Shown here piece by piece: positions 19,571 to 36,142 of a stretch of DNA of 64,000 nucleotides. Under the pieces are notes generated by a model, which saw only the letters and a list, made by a program, of their open reading frames with translations, had not been told where the DNA came from and searched no databases. A program made the translations under genes and the position numbers. Origin of the DNA: Apibacter sp. B3706 (lineage in GTDB: Bacteria > Bacteroidota > Bacteroidia > Flavobacteriales > Weeksellaceae); contig NZ_CP049715.1 in the NCBI RefSeq assembly GCF_011082725.1, positions 434,001 through 498,000 on the forward strand, read 5' to 3'. Each line of letters opens with the position of its first letter. Within the stretch, counting starts at the first letter, position 1.

Positions 19571-19655
19571 CAATAATATTATTAGAGTTATTTTTAAATT
19601 AAATACTAGTATAAGTATATATACTATTGATTTTATTGTTTTATTTAAACATAAT

Positions 19656-19748
19656 AAAAAACCCCGTTATAGAACGGGGTTAAAACTAACTACTATGAAA
19701 ATTCACTGCCTTATGAACATTTATAGTAAGACAAATTCCATGCCATAA
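19656..19748 (-). ncRNA. array unit 1 (putative small RNA)
   Basis: Hairpin stem AACCCCGTT/AACGGGGTT (19660-19668, 19673-19681) followed by a T run on the minus strand; conserved core at 19683-19714. Separated from unit 2 by a longer gap than the other units. Confidence 0.65.
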
Positions 19749-20124
19749 AATTTCAAATAGTTAAATTATTATAAATTATATGTGTTTATATAATTTTTAA
19801 GATAATATATAGTGAATAAATTATTTTTCTTTTTAAAAATAAATATGAATTAACGTTTTTTGATCTAATATGTTATAAAATCTTCCATTTTAAATTATTT
19901 CAACAAATATTTATTTAAAAGAATAATATGAAGCATATATTGGAAAAATAGTAATATTCCGTTTTTAATATATTAATAAAGTTTATATTAATAAAGTTCT
20001 TATCAATTTAAAAAGAACGGGATTTAAAAAAAAACTTATCTCAAATCAAACTTATCATTCAAATGTATTTTTTTAGCTGATTAATTCGATAATGAATTTA
20101 GTTAAAAATAATTTTTCTGTTAAT
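19749..20124. other. gap between array units 1 and 2
   Basis: AT-rich, no gene. A weak hairpin GTTCTT/AAGAAC (19996-20001, 20013-20018) followed by GATTTAAAA resembles a decayed unit end, but the conserved core is absent. Confidence 0.35.
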
Positions 20125-20216
20125 AAAAAAGCCCCGTAATACGGGGCTTAAAACTAACTACTATGAAAATTCACTGCCTTATGAATATTTATATTAAAAC
20201 AAAATTCATGCCATAA
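20125..20216 (-). ncRNA. array unit 2 (putative small RNA)
   Basis: Hairpin AAGCCCCGT/ACGGGGCTT (20129-20137, 20141-20149) with T run on the minus strand, then the invariant core. Confidence 0.65.
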
Positions 20217-20302
20217 TATATGTATTTTGTTTATTTAATTGTAATAATTTACTGATAATAAATTTGTGATTGAAATAATATAGTTTAATTAAAGTACTAA
20301 AT

Positions 20303-20400
20303 AAAGAAAGTCCCATTAATGATAATGGGACTTAAAACTAACTACTATGAAAATTCACTGCCTTATGAACATTTATATTAAAACAAAATTCATGCCATAA
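20303..20400 (-). ncRNA. array unit 3 (putative small RNA)
   Basis: Hairpin AAGTCCCATTA/TAATGGGACTT (20308-20318, 20323-20333), perfectly paired, then the invariant core. Confidence 0.65.
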
Positions 20401-20490
20401 TATTTGTGCTTAATTTATTTAATTGTAATAATCTGTTGATAATAAATTTGTAATTGAAATAATATTTTTTAAATAAAGTACTAAATAAAT

Positions 20491-20584
20491 AAAGTCCCAC
20501 TAATGATAGTGGGACTTAAAACTAACTACTATGAAAATTCACTGCCTTATGAACATTTATATTAAAACAAAATTCATGCCATAA
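20491..20584 (-). ncRNA. array unit 4 (putative small RNA)
   Basis: Hairpin AAGTCCCACTA/TAGTGGGACTT (20492-20502, 20507-20517): compared with unit 3 one A-T pair has become a C-G pair on both sides. Confidence 0.65.
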
Positions 20585-20673
20585 TTAAGGTTTTATATTT
20601 ATTTAAATACAATAATATTTTAATAAAAATTTTTTAATTGAAATAATATATAATGAATTAGTTATAAATAAAT

Positions 20674-20767
20674 AAAGTTCCACTATTGAAAGTAGAACTT
20701 AAAACTAACTACTATGAAAATTTACTGCCTTATGAATAATTGTATAAAAACAAATTTTATGACATAA
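20674..20767 (-). ncRNA. array unit 5 (putative small RNA, slightly diverged)
   Basis: Hairpin AAGTTCCACT/AGTAGAACTT (20675-20684, 20691-20700). The single mismatch is a U-G wobble only if the minus strand is transcribed. The core has TTTAC for TTCAC and the start region reads TTATGTCATAAAATTTG. Confidence 0.62.
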
Positions 20768-20840
20768 AAATTATATTTAATTTAATACGATAATATATTT
20801 AATATTATATGAAATAATAATCTTTTAAATTATGTTAAAT

Positions 20841-20937
20841 AAAAAAGTCTCACTACTTAAAGTGAGACTTAAAACTAACTACTATGAAAATTCACTGCCT
20901 TATGAACATTTGTTTATAGACAAATTCTATGCCATAA
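20841..20937 (-). ncRNA. array unit 6 (putative small RNA)
   Basis: Hairpin AAGTCTCACT/AGTGAGACTT (20845-20854, 20861-20870) with T run; core intact. The plus-strand mini-frame is broken by an early stop here, arguing against coding. Confidence 0.65.
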
Positions 20938-21023
20938 TAGTTATATTTAATTTATTTATATATTATAAATATGGTAAAATTTTATACGTTATGAAATAAT
21001 ATATCTTATTGATTACTTTAAAT

Positions 21024-21122
21024 AAAAAAAAGTCTCACTACTTAAAGTGAGACTTAAAACTAACTACTATGAAAATTCACTGCCTTATGAATAATTATTT
21101 AAAAACAAATTTCATGCCATAA
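21024..21122 (-). ncRNA. array unit 7 (putative small RNA)
   Basis: Hairpin 21030-21055, same stem as unit 6. This unit plus its spacer is identical to unit 8 plus its spacer over a 183-base period. Confidence 0.65.
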
Positions 21123-21207
21123 TATTTAATCATATATTTGTAATATATTATAATTTTAATAATATTATTATATAATTAAAATAATATATTGATAAAATGC
21201 ACGAAAT

Positions 21208-21305
21208 AAAAAAAGTCTCACTACTTAAAGTGAGACTTAAAACTAACTACTATGAAAATTCACTGCCTTATGAATAATTATTTAAAAACAAATTTCATGC
21301 CATAA
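21208..21305 (-). ncRNA. array unit 8 (putative small RNA)
   Basis: Hairpin 21213-21238. Exact copy of unit 7, including the following AT-rich spacer. Confidence 0.65.
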
Positions 21306-21390
21306 TATTTAATCATATATTTGTAATATATTATAATTTTAATAATATTATTATATAATTAAAATAATATATTGATAAAATGCACGAAAT

Positions 21391-21488
21391 AAAAAAAGTC
21401 TCACTACTTAAAGTGAGACTTAAAACTAACTACTATGAAAATTCACTGCCTTATGAACATTTATTTTAAAACAAAATTCATGCCATAA
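21391..21488 (-). ncRNA. array unit 9 (putative small RNA)
   Basis: Hairpin 21396-21421, same stem as units 6-8; the variable stretch differs from unit 8. Confidence 0.65.
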
Positions 21489-21595
21489 TTTTATGAAATT
21501 GTTATTTGTATATAATATTTATTTTAGAATAATTAAATGTTATAAAATTTTGGAGATGATATAATTGTATAAGATAAAATTTTAATTAAGATAAT

Positions 21596-21692
21596 AAAAA
21601 AGCCCTATTAATAATAACAGGGCTTAAAACTAACTACTACGAAAATTCACTGCCTTATGAACATTTTAAGTAAGGCAATATTTGTGCCATTG
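21596..21692 (-). ncRNA. array unit 10 (putative small RNA)
   Basis: Hairpin AAGCCCTATTA/TAACAGGGCTT (21600-21610, 21615-21625): the one non-Watson-Crick position is a G-U wobble on the minus strand. The core has TTCGTAG where others have TTCATAG, and the start region is TGGCACAAATATTG. Confidence 0.62.
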
Positions 21693-21810
21693 AATTGCGG
21701 AAGTAATTTATAAATTTTAAAATTTAATGTTTACTACTATGAAAATAGTAATAAATATATCATAAGGTGATTTGTAAAATAAATATTATCAATATTTTAA
21801 ATATATAAAT

Positions 21811-21902
21811 AAAAAACCCCATAATTAATGGGGTTTAAAACTAACTACTACGAAAATTCACTGCCTTATGAACATTTATAGTAAAACAATATTTGTGCCA
21901 TT
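21811..21902 (-). ncRNA. array unit 11 (putative small RNA)
   Basis: Hairpin AAACCCCAT/ATGGGGTTT (21814-21822, 21828-21836) with T run; shares the TTCGTAG core variant and start region with unit 10. Confidence 0.62.
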
Positions 21903-22015
21903 GAGTTGCACAAGTAAATTAAATATTTTAAATATAAGGTTTAAAATATCATTAAAAAATTATAAATGTATGATGAGTATTGTGAAAATATCAGAATTAA
22001 TTTTTTGTTTTAAAT

Positions 22016-22086
22016 AAAAAAAGCCCTATTAAAAATAACAGAGCTTAAAACTAACTACAACAAAAATTCACTTTCTTAAGAAGATT
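22016..22086 (-). ncRNA. array unit 12, interrupted remnant
   Basis: Hairpin arms 22021-22030 and 22037-22046; two positions pair only as G-U/U-G wobbles on the minus strand. The core is degenerate (GTGAATTTTTGTTGTAG) and homology stops at about 22086. The missing start region (consensus TATATTA-CAAAATTCATGCCATAATAT on the plus strand) is found 2.5 kb away at 24606-24636. Confidence 0.55.
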
Positions 22087-22089
22087 AGC

Positions 22090-24605: not shown

Positions 24606-24636
24606 AGATATATTAGACAAAATTTATGCCATTATA
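24606..24636 (-). repeat. displaced end of array unit 12
   Basis: The plus strand reads TATATTAGACAAAATTTATG and then CCATTATAT, matching the start-region end of the array units (TATATTAAAACAAAATTCAT then GCCATAATAT) at nearly every position. It is 2.5 kb from the rest of the array and marks the right border of the foreign block. Confidence 0.65.
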
Positions 24637-33709: not shown

Positions 33710-36142
33710 TTGTTGTTTTTTTTTATATTGAATAAAATAATATTGCTTGTGAATAATCAATTATTTAAAATAGATCTTCGATTTTACACTTTGTTTTCTA
33801 AATATGTATACGTGCTAATCTTTCTATTTAGTACAACGATTTATCAATCACAAACTCTAAAAAAAGGCGAATTAGCGGTTGGTATTGATCTAACTTATGC
33901 TCCCTATGCCTATTTAGAAGGAATTCCCAGTGGTTTTGACCCTGATTTAATGAGATTAATAGGGGAAAAATTAAATCTTAAAGTAGTCTTTAAAGATACC
34001 AGAATAGAAAATATAATTATGGGCTTAAATGCAGGACATTATGATCTTATAGCATCTGCATTGTATATTAATCCGCAACGAGCTCAACAAGTTTCATTTT
34101 TACCCTATCTGCAAACCGGAGGTGTATTAGTTGTTAGAAAAGACGAATCCTACCGACCGTTATCTTTACAAGACTTATGCGGAAAGAAAATTTCTTCCAT
34201 GAAAGGGGCGGCATGGATTCCTAAATTAAATGATGTTACCAAGAATTTCTGTTTTAAGAATAATAAACAAGCAATTGAAGTTAAAGAATACCCCAGTGCT
34301 CCCGAGGCTTCACAGGCGCTATTATCCAAAGGCGTGGATGTACAATATGAAGATGCGGCAGTAGCTAAAATGTTAATTGACAGATTAGGAGATAAATTGG
34401 TAATTTCTACACACGAAATGATAGATCCCGTATTAATAGGTTTAGCATTTAAAAATGAAAACATAGCCTTAAAAAATAAAATCGCACAAGTTATCCAAGA
34501 ACTAAGAAAATCGGGAGAATATCAACAGTTATTGGATAAATATAATTTGGCTTATCCAAGTCAAGAATTAGTACATAAATATCAGATAGAAGAAGAATCG
34601 ATTTCATCTCAAAAAAAGAATACAATTTTAAATTGGAAATATTTTAAAAATCAATTTATTAACACAGATTTTTGGAAAGCTTGTTTAACTGTATTCGAGT
34701 TAAGTACATTAACTTGGTGTATAGGAGTAGTTTTAGGCTTTTTAGTAGCATTAATGGGACAGAGTTCTCATTCATTTATAAGAACTATTTCCAAAGGTTA
34801 TATTTGGTTTTTCAGGAGTTTACCTTTATTGGTATTATTAATATTTATATATAATCTACCTCAAATTTGGCCTCAAAGCTCGATAATACTATCCAATCCC
34901 TTCATATCCGGTTTAATAGCTTTAGTTTTAAGTGAAACAGCCTATATAGCGGAAATACATAGAGGAGCATTACAAGCGATACCCAAAGGACAATATGAGG
35001 CGGGAAAAGCACTGGGGTTATCCTACTGGGGAATCATGAGATTGATTGTTGCCCCTCAAACATTTAGGATAGCCTTACCGTCACTCGCTAATCAATACGT
35101 AACCATAGTTAAGTTAACCTCACTGGTATCGGTGATTTCCTTGACCGAAATATTGATGGTTGGACAGCAATTGTATACACGTAACTTTCTGGTTATGGAA
35201 ACCCTGTTAGCAGTTGCTATCTATTATATACTAATAGTTACTTTGGTAACATGGATTATTAACAAATTTGAAGCAAAATTTGATGTCCATAAAAAAAGCA
35301 CAGACATTGATAGTTCAATACAAGTTGATTTTGAAAAAATAAGAGAATATTCGAACATAAAAAATACGAAGAAGGGGTCAACCGCTTTAGAATTAAAAAA
35401 TATAACAAAAACATTTGGAACTACTTTAGTATTAAAGAATATATGTTTAAGCGTTCCTTGGGGAAAAGTAATTAGTATTATAGGTCCATCAGGATCCGGA
35501 AAAAGTACCTTAATAAGATCCATAAACGGTTTAGAAACAATAGATGAAGGAGATATTGAAATGGGAGAAGTTTCTCTTATAGCTAAAAATAAAAGTAAAT
35601 TTCATAAATCAAAAATGAAACTTCAGGAAATGAGGATAGGTATGGTTTTTCAATCGTATAATCTTTTTCCACACAAAACGGTATTAGAAAATGTAATGTT
35701 GGCTCCTTTATATCATAAAAAAAACAATGATAAACAGCTGCTGCGTATGTATGCATTGGCAATGTTAGATAAAGTAGGTATGTTGGTTCATGCCAATAAA
35801 TACCCTCACCAATTATCAGGAGGGCAGCAACAGCGGGTAGCCATAGCAAGAGCATTGGCTATAGAGCCCGATATTATGTTATTTGATGAACCAACATCCG
35901 CTTTAGATCCCGAATTAGTTCAAGAAGTATTGAAAGTTATAAAAGAATTATCTACTGAAGGCATGACTATGATAATTGTTACTCATGAAATGAAATTCGC
36001 ATTTGAGGTATCAGATAGAATTGTTTTTATGGAATCAGGAAAAATTTTATACAATGAAGAACCTCAACAAATGAAAAAATCCAAGGATGAAAGATTACTA
36101 AAATTCATTGGAAATGTTGCTCCCATCGATTATACTATTTAA
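33710..36142 (+). CDS. amino-acid ABC importer with binding protein, permease and ATPase in one chain
   Basis: 810-residue polar amino-acid (His/Gln/cystine type) importer. After a hydrophobic signal (about residues 33-46) residues 50-280 form a substrate-binding domain ([47 protein letters not shown]). Residues about 310-525 form the permease ([60 protein letters not shown]). Residues about 550-800 form the ATPase: Walker [25 protein letters not shown], Walker B IMLFDEP, switch THEMKFA. No ATG occurs before residue 81, so the start is non-ATG: TTG 33710 with an AGGAA box, or GTG 33752. The next two genes suggest a cysteine-related substrate. Confidence 0.9.

Follow-up and report, generated by a model that had tools for sequence, protein, structure and literature searches.

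What is the reason for a bacterial chromosome to carry a dozen nearly identical short units in tandem? The question is raised by a stretch of 64 kilobases (kb) from the genome of Apibacter sp. B3706 (bases 434001-498000 of one contig of 2,297,680 bases; hereafter the window), in which 12 such units occupy positions 19653-22087 of the minus strand. Judging from their sequences, these units look like 12 copies of an uncatalogued small-RNA (sRNA) gene, and the RNA family to which they belong probably silences its target messages by base-pairing across the start codon. A preliminary description of the locus had already recognized the twelve-copy tandem array on this strand; it had missed the sigma-54 promoters of the units, the conservation of the RNA across its bacterial family, Weeksellaceae, and the copies carried by phages.

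The array units as predicted small-RNA genes

The plus-strand core of the unit, TTAAAACTAACTACTATGAA, occurs 12 times with an identity of 85-100%, in line with the near-invariant core noted in the preliminary description. The start-to-start distances are 468, 184, 184, 183, 170, 185, 183, 183, 204, 211 and 210 nucleotides (nt), and the spacing of mostly 170-214 described previously thus holds for 10 of the 11 intervals (170-211), the remaining one being 468. The pattern GTTCATAAGGCAGTGAATTTTCRTAGTAGTTAG, with up to three mismatches allowed, was matched 11 times in the 2.30-megabase genome, always inside the array, and its reversed control not at all; unit 1 (22014-22087) has diverged too far to be detected at this threshold. 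The adjacent units at 21025-21207 and 21208-21390 are 100% identical across 183 nt, which shows a recent tandem duplication.

The predicted RNA is about 70 nt long and is composed of a 5' hairpin (GUUCAU-AAGGCA-GUGAAU), a single-stranded linker with the sequence UUUUCAUAGUAGUUAGUUUUAA, and a terminator hairpin. Across the 12 units, 97.4% of the cells in the 10 terminator pairs are paired and both sides have changed in 7 of the 10, so the earlier remark that the hairpin varies in sequence yet stays paired proved correct. Taken over all 16 pairs of the structure, covariation scored 0.342 compared to 0.205 in shuffles, none of 500 of which was as high, although caution applies to this figure as the 12 sequences are related. 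Further pair types were not in excess across the 12 units (11 compared to 12.1 in shuffles). Structures slid out of register paired 36-49% of the cells, compared to 96.8% for the predicted one. A stronger result was obtained with 20 sequences from several genera: 0.458 compared to 0.207 in shuffles, again with none of 500 as high. As modelled, the 5' hairpin has a U-A outer pair in the 9 Apibacter sequences among them and C-G in the 11 others.

The family had not been recognized in the preliminary description, and none of the 4227 families of Rfam 15 reached its gathering cut-off anywhere in the window. Five sub-threshold matches at the array scored 15.8-25.9 bits against cut-offs of 40-70, and a match was likewise absent at the homologues in six scanned loci. 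Flavo-1 (RF01705), a small RNA of Bacteroidota that the preliminary description had named as a family to check, differs from the array RNA in having no match in the window at gathering and none in the array at E 1. A Flavo-1 RNA does occur in locus L052 (1939-2044, minus strand, 67 bits), as a separate element some 600 nt from the sRNA. A reading of the array as clustered regularly interspaced short palindromic repeats (CRISPR) was rejected, its sole trace being a sub-threshold match to CRISPR-DR5. No account of this RNA was found in the literature searched, including the consulted portions of PMC9723704 and of the review PMC9029176.

Since the terminators covary, a sigma-54 promoter stands at a fixed distance ahead of 11 of the 12 units, homologues are found family-wide and no Rfam family matches, the units can be regarded as independent sRNA genes of about 70 nt with intrinsic terminators, as had been proposed.

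Sigma-54 promoters and their candidate activators

The conserved block upstream of the units, previously listed together with the RNA core, is by its sequence a sigma-54 promoter and not an RNA element; this identification relies on the -24/-12 consensus of sigma-54 promoters. The block is present at 11 of 12 units and absent from the one nearest 22058: the promoter TGGCAY-N5-TTGY is strict in 10 of 12, carries one mismatch in unit 8 and is not seen in unit 1. Its -24 element begins 23 nt ahead of the aligned RNA block, and the near-invariant sequence runs from about the expected sigma-54 +1 to the terminator. In 864 kb of the Apibacter sp. B3706 genome (the window plus 40 further stretches) there are 16 strict TGGCAY-N5-TTGY sites, of which 10 lie in the array, 5 before other open reading frames (ORFs) and 1 alone, compared to 3, 2 and 4 sites for control motifs in which one half was scrambled or the spacing was altered. 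The lone strict motif stands on the minus strand at 24617-24631 of the window, with no ORF of 80 amino acids (aa) behind it.

The predicted sRNAs and their promoters, all on the minus strand, are arranged as follows. Unit 1 (22014-22087) retains the core and the terminator, but its 5' hairpin is broken and no sigma-54 promoter is visible; it is probably a decaying copy. Unit 2 (21808-21877) is preceded by TGGCAC-N5-TTGT at 21886-21900, and unit 3 (21593-21666) by TGGCAC-N5-TTGC at 21675-21689, in full agreement with the consensus. Next come unit 4 (21391-21462; promoter at 21471-21485), unit 5 (21208-21279; 21288-21302), unit 6 (21024-21096; 21105-21119) and unit 7 (20841-20911; 20920-20934). 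In unit 8 (20670-20741) the 5' hairpin is weakened by a change of GTGAAT to GTAAAT, and the sigma-54-like promoter, TGTCAT-N5-TTGT at 20750-20764, contains the one mismatch. The array ends with unit 9 (20487-20558; 20567-20581), unit 10 (20303-20374; 20383-20397), unit 11 (20122-20190; 20199-20213) and unit 12 (19653-19722; 19731-19745). The spacer between units 2 and 3 contains a partial, diverged linker copy, TTTTCATAGTAGTAAACATT, on the minus strand at about 21727-21746, perhaps the remnant of one more unit. Elsewhere in the window, at 33710-36142, a single ORF of 810 aa reads as an apparent fusion of the periplasmic binding domain, permease and ATPase of an amino-acid ATP-binding cassette (ABC) transporter.

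The genome encodes one RpoN and two strong sigma-54 activator ATPases; three additional weak activator-ATPase matches above the cut-off were judged to be other ATPases. The first activator (392 aa) has receiver and ATPase domains, and a DNA-binding domain was not found in it, while the second (425 aa) carries a Fis-type helix-turn-helix. An NtrC-like activator of the first type (L009 1060-2235 and L043 1956-3131) could act without enhancer sites. In a relative (G005), an activator of the receiver-ATPase type directly adjoins the single sRNA copy in divergent orientation, and for this reason we infer that the receiver-ATPase protein is the likelier activator of the array.

For other genera, promoters were classified for 83 copies in 80 listed loci, out of at least 120. 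Strict sigma-54 promoters precede 31 of these copies (29 at the same distance), 33 have one within two mismatches, 18 have none and 1 sequence is too short. A first-pass, rule-based classification, from which some copies differ when classed by eye, gave 33 sigma-54 promoters, 23 variants with a -24 element and TTC or TTT at -12, 18 sigma-A-like promoters (TAnnTTTG), 1 copy behind a transfer RNA (tRNA), 7 unclassified and 1 too short. The RNA family thus includes paralogues with different switches, of which Apibacter has multiplied the sigma-54 kind.

An RNA family of Weeksellaceae

A covariance-model search of related genomes, suggested in the preliminary description, supported an RNA conserved well beyond Apibacter. 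Model R1, built from the 12 units, matched all 8 other Apibacter genomes, with 1-10 copies each; the three single-copy genomes among them are assemblies of at least 150 contigs. Model R2, built from 20 sequences, matched 268 of 296 Weeksellaceae genomes, in 29 of 33 genera, at E 0.001. In a search of 395 Flavobacteriales genomes at E 1e-4, 75 matched, every one of them from Weeksellaceae. Up to 7 copies are found outside Apibacter, with clusters of three in G027 and G132, and higher counts occur only in Apibacter. At E 0.01, weak matches to model R1 also appeared outside Weeksellaceae, in five genomes (G063, G081, G087, G090, G093); the one that was read, in G087 (L047), has no linker and was dropped as chance.

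The exact pattern GARTTTTCRTRGTWRTTAGTTTT was found in at least 120 stretches, and the 80 that were listed belong to Chryseobacterium, Kaistella, Epilithonimonas, Bergeyella, Cloacibacterium and one metagenome-assembled genome (MAG) of Weeksellaceae. A Flavobacteriales MAG (L180) contains a full sRNA copy. A match in Kordia (L172, one of 40 other stretches) has neither promoter nor terminator nearby and was taken as chance. Promoters also precede homologues elsewhere, and single-copy genomes retain the whole unit. Going by gene names assigned by reading, an ndk-like gene adjoins a copy in 7 of 10 family loci, from six genera, and a nicotinamidase-like gene does so in 5 of 9 Apibacter genomes.

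Predicted targets of the linker

The linker is antisense to the start-region sequence 5'-ACTAAYWACYATGAAAA-3', which comprises a start codon and its 5' flank. Its reverse complement includes ACTATGAAAA in Apibacter or ACCATGAAAA in the family, that is, the start codon followed by the common MK start. With up to two mismatches, the pattern ACTAATAACCATGAAAA gave 175 hits, sRNA genes included, in 20 RNA-bearing genomes of nine genera, compared to 63 for the reversed control; shuffling its upstream part gave 39 hits in the same genomes, 3 of them at one mismatch. In 20 RNA-lacking genomes (10 from Weeksellaceae and 10 from other families) there were 58 hits against 71 for the reversed control, and none with 0-1 mismatch. 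Among the matches listed, we examined 29 sites with 0-1 mismatch outside recognized sRNA genes, a partial set to which five of the 20 genomes contribute only one site (L230). At 17 of these the ATG opens an ORF of at least 60 aa; the 17 represent about 12 different genes, some being shared by three congeneric species. By eye, with no predictor, 11 of the 17 ORFs begin like secreted proteins or lipoproteins, and the others comprise a response regulator, a membrane protein, a small peptide resembling a ribosomally synthesized and post-translationally modified peptide (RiPP), and a protein of unknown role that recurs in three species. Predicted duplexes at five near-perfect sites range from -20 to -29 kcal/mol. 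Complementary sites at translation starts therefore co-occur with the RNA in relatives.

In two loci such sites are repeated. In L260, at 147-235, the 5' leader of a sugar-permease-like gene contains three complements of the linker at intervals of 36 nt, with 2, 0 and 2 mismatches. In L248 (G104) there are also three, one of which starts a 63-aa RiPP-precursor-like peptide of the MKNKKLVELSKK type, the other two opening 12-aa frames.

For the genome of Apibacter sp. B3706, we compared predicted duplexes of the linker with 700 start regions from the 864 kb. Seventeen regions reach -14 kcal/mol, compared to 4.2 on average when the linker was fully shuffled; none of 40 such shuffles had as many, and the linker was ahead of all 40 at every cutoff. 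Shuffles that keep UUUUCAU averaged 9.8 regions at -14 kcal/mol, and 5 of 60 had as many as the real linker. The linker appears tuned to start regions, but much of that tuning comes from its anti-start part.

Two relatives, G049 (L263) and G138 (L266), also contain a candidate sponge RNA for the sRNA. This minus-strand stretch (at ~238 and ~270, respectively) has a TTTACTTTG promoter-like box, a strong terminator, and a hairpin, GCTTATAAA..TTTATAAGC, whose loop presents the exact 17-nt complement of the linker. From the site onward, the two species share 28 identical nt, and only a four-codon ORF opens at the site.

Copies in phages and a plasmid

The RNA pattern was also found in 23 contigs of IMG/VR, with 24 copies, and no copy was found in the INPHARED phage collection. 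In ten of these contigs (L358, L360, L363, L364, L365, L366, L369, L370, L371 and L376), and in the host loci L146 and L210, a tRNA is followed by a hairpin element of about 40 nt with the loop GTTARCTACRGGAAATTGYG, and then by the sRNA; ARAGORN placed a tRNA within range in 6 of the ten contigs. The GTTARCTACRGGAAATTGYG element has a conserved loop and a variable stem, no Rfam family matched it in five scanned loci, and it may be a processing signal that creates the 5' end of the sRNA. A pseudoknot in this element is not claimed, as by eye the upstream stem is not kept in every copy. In L361 and L367 the sRNA stands directly behind a tRNA, with GAG 18 nt past the tRNA end, and by eye L368 (two copies), L374 and L380 have the same layout; in L375 and L378 the sRNA is near an integrase gene.

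A test of ten proteins, encoded on six of the contigs, revealed a replication module (DNA polymerase, helicase and single-stranded-DNA-binding protein) in L371, a tape-measure protein, an integrase and an endolysin in L375, an integrase in L378, a helicase in L361, a DNA methyltransferase in L366, and a family of unknown function in L369. Phage identity is thus clear for some of the contigs; for the others it relies on IMG/VR. In a plasmid of Chryseobacterium joostei there is a match of 86% identity, at a place where no feature is annotated.

A proposed mechanism

How could these elements work together? We consider it reasonably probable that the array consists of single-gene units of one trans-acting sRNA of about 70 nt, which sigma-54 fires and which blocks start codons independently of Hfq. 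With a sigma-54 promoter ahead of every intact unit, the units would all fire together upon a signal relayed by RpoN and an activator ATPase. The comparative data suggest that the linker would then pair with messenger RNA (mRNA) across the start codon and the flank 5' of it, often in genes with an MK start and signal-peptide-like beginnings. This pairing would block ribosome entry without Hfq (PF17209), which was detected in none of 35 genomes and in 5 of 14 control genomes, Escherichia coli included. The many copies would raise the dose. The weakest step is the role: by analogy with Flavobacterium psychrophilum, the RNA might cut the synthesis of exported proteins in envelope or protein-folding stress. 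According to the consulted part of PMC9723704, the sigma-54 regulon of that species contains GroESL, DnaK, GrpE-DnaJ, HtpG, Lon, ClpB, Skp, gliding genes, lipoproteins and the putative sRNA Rfp36. Of the two roles envisaged in the preliminary description, base-pairing regulation has gained comparative support at start codons; this role and that of a multi-copy sponge are both inferred.

Several observations weigh against the proposed mechanism. Regarding control, 37 Apibacter and 62 family upstream stretches yielded no usable enhancer motif, the shared 7-mers being mostly parts of the preceding unit in Apibacter and mostly A-rich, or perhaps common to orthologous loci, in other genera. Some paralogues elsewhere have sigma-A-like promoters or follow tRNAs, and sigma-54 control is therefore not universal. 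Regarding targets, 12 of the 29 sites examined in relatives are not gene starts; they include 3 apparent decayed sRNA genes, 2 sites in the sponge candidate and 1 in L260. In nine Apibacter genomes a fixed 18-mer gave 192 hits, about 48 of them array copies, with no excess over the 190 of the reversed control, and in the genome of Apibacter sp. B3706 the fixed pattern gave 97 (12 of them array units) compared to 144. At none of the 17 non-array loci examined there does the ATG of the motif open a 60-aa ORF. Finally, 4-13 of the 60 UUUUCAU-keeping shuffles equal the real linker, depending on the cutoff, and specificity beyond the start codon is therefore weak in this genome. The evidence for targets is thus good in relatives and weak in Apibacter, as judged by sequence complementarity, and own-genome targets are the weakest link.

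Alternative explanations

The RNAs could be real sigma-54-dependent sRNAs whose linker binds a protein or another RNA as a sponge or decoy, the array being a titration device and start codons not being involved. The absence of a fixed-pattern target excess in Apibacter is consistent with this, as is the finding that in 42 Apibacter copies, which were selected by their linker and do not include the more diverged ones, 1 of 4 two-letter linker positions varies. The complementary, terminator-ended stretch in two relatives makes RNA partners other than mRNA plausible. We nevertheless regard titration as unlikely, because both versions of the linker, that of the genus and that of the family, read as the antisense of a start region, and because in relatives 17 of the 29 near-perfect sites examined mark gene starts, with no near-perfect sites in 20 RNA-lacking genomes. 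A related possibility is that the array mainly ties up RpoN or its activator on the DNA, the transcripts being a by-product. It is suggested by the concentration in the array of 10 of the 16 strict sigma-54 sites in 864 kb, and it appears very improbable given the signs of selection on the RNA itself, namely terminators that covary both between units and between genera and a linker that is conserved from genus to genus, and given that single-copy genomes retain the whole unit.

Another explanation would treat each unit as the gene of a very short peptide, with the RNA as its mRNA. A short ATG frame does run through the linker in most copies of other genera (60 of 76), but in few of those from Apibacter (4 of 42), whereas the 5' hairpin is present in 76 of 76 and 39 of 42 (rule-based counts on linker-selected copies); the preliminary description had named a protein frame kept without the hairpin pairing as evidence against an RNA, and this is not the pattern found. 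The hairpin loop lengths in other genera are 6, 7, 8, 9, 10 and 16 (9 in 63 of 76), the two linker versions differ at positions that read as non-synonymous, and there is little leader before the hairpin, so that a peptide gene can hardly be expected. The least probable explanation is a non-functional tandem repeat, spread by slippage or as a mobile element. Identical adjacent units and related copies in phages and a plasmid would be compatible with it, but it is refuted in the main by the family-wide conservation, and also opposed by the compensatory changes in the hairpins and by the ndk-like neighbour in 7 of 10 family loci from six genera.

Relation to known small RNAs

The start-codon-blocking sRNA that we favour belongs to a general kind that is already known, the multi-copy and sigma-54-driven sRNA, and appears to be a new family within it. 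The Qrr sRNAs of Vibrio depend on sigma-54, exist in several near-identical short copies, end in an intrinsic terminator and pair through an invariant region. The array RNA resembles them in its sigma-54-type promoter, near-identical copies, short length, intrinsic terminator and predicted pairing via an invariant region. It differs from them in having no Rfam match (the Qrr family, part of the covariance-model library, gave none in the window), in a Bacteroidota host where Hfq was not found, in its tandem rather than dispersed copies, and in a different pairing region. MicA and RybB of enterobacteria are sigma-E-dependent sRNAs of the envelope stress response. They likewise exemplify an alternative sigma factor driving sRNAs that block the translation of exported proteins, although for the array the sigma factor is another one, Hfq was not found and the targets are predicted only. 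Within the same order, the consulted part of PMC9723704 describes two RNAs of F. psychrophilum: Rfp36, a putative regulatory RNA with a sigma-54-type promoter, and Rfp18, an sRNA that acts on exported proteases and is described as pairing via a third stem-loop. This described pairing mode sets Rfp18 apart from the array RNA, and among the 395 Flavobacteriales genomes model R2 has no match outside Weeksellaceae at E 1e-4. What is unusual about the family is its tandem number, Hfq-free setting, start-codon antisense linker and carriage by phages.

Implications

To our knowledge, few trans-acting sRNAs are understood in Flavobacteriales. The RNA described here is a well-delimited, structured and family-wide sRNA of known promoter class; its pairing region can be predicted, candidates are at hand for its targets and for a sponge, and all of this is testable. 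Its copy number of 1-12 provides a natural dosage series. It is tempting to speculate, though only tentatively, that it represents a Weeksellaceae-wide and Hfq-free start-codon blocker of exported proteins, deployed in sigma-54 arrays in one genus, checked by a sponge in others, and carried by phages behind tRNAs, where tRNA processing would make its 5' end. The phage copies pose the question of why phages carry a regulatory RNA of their hosts. If the proposal is true, phages could set the same switch in the host.

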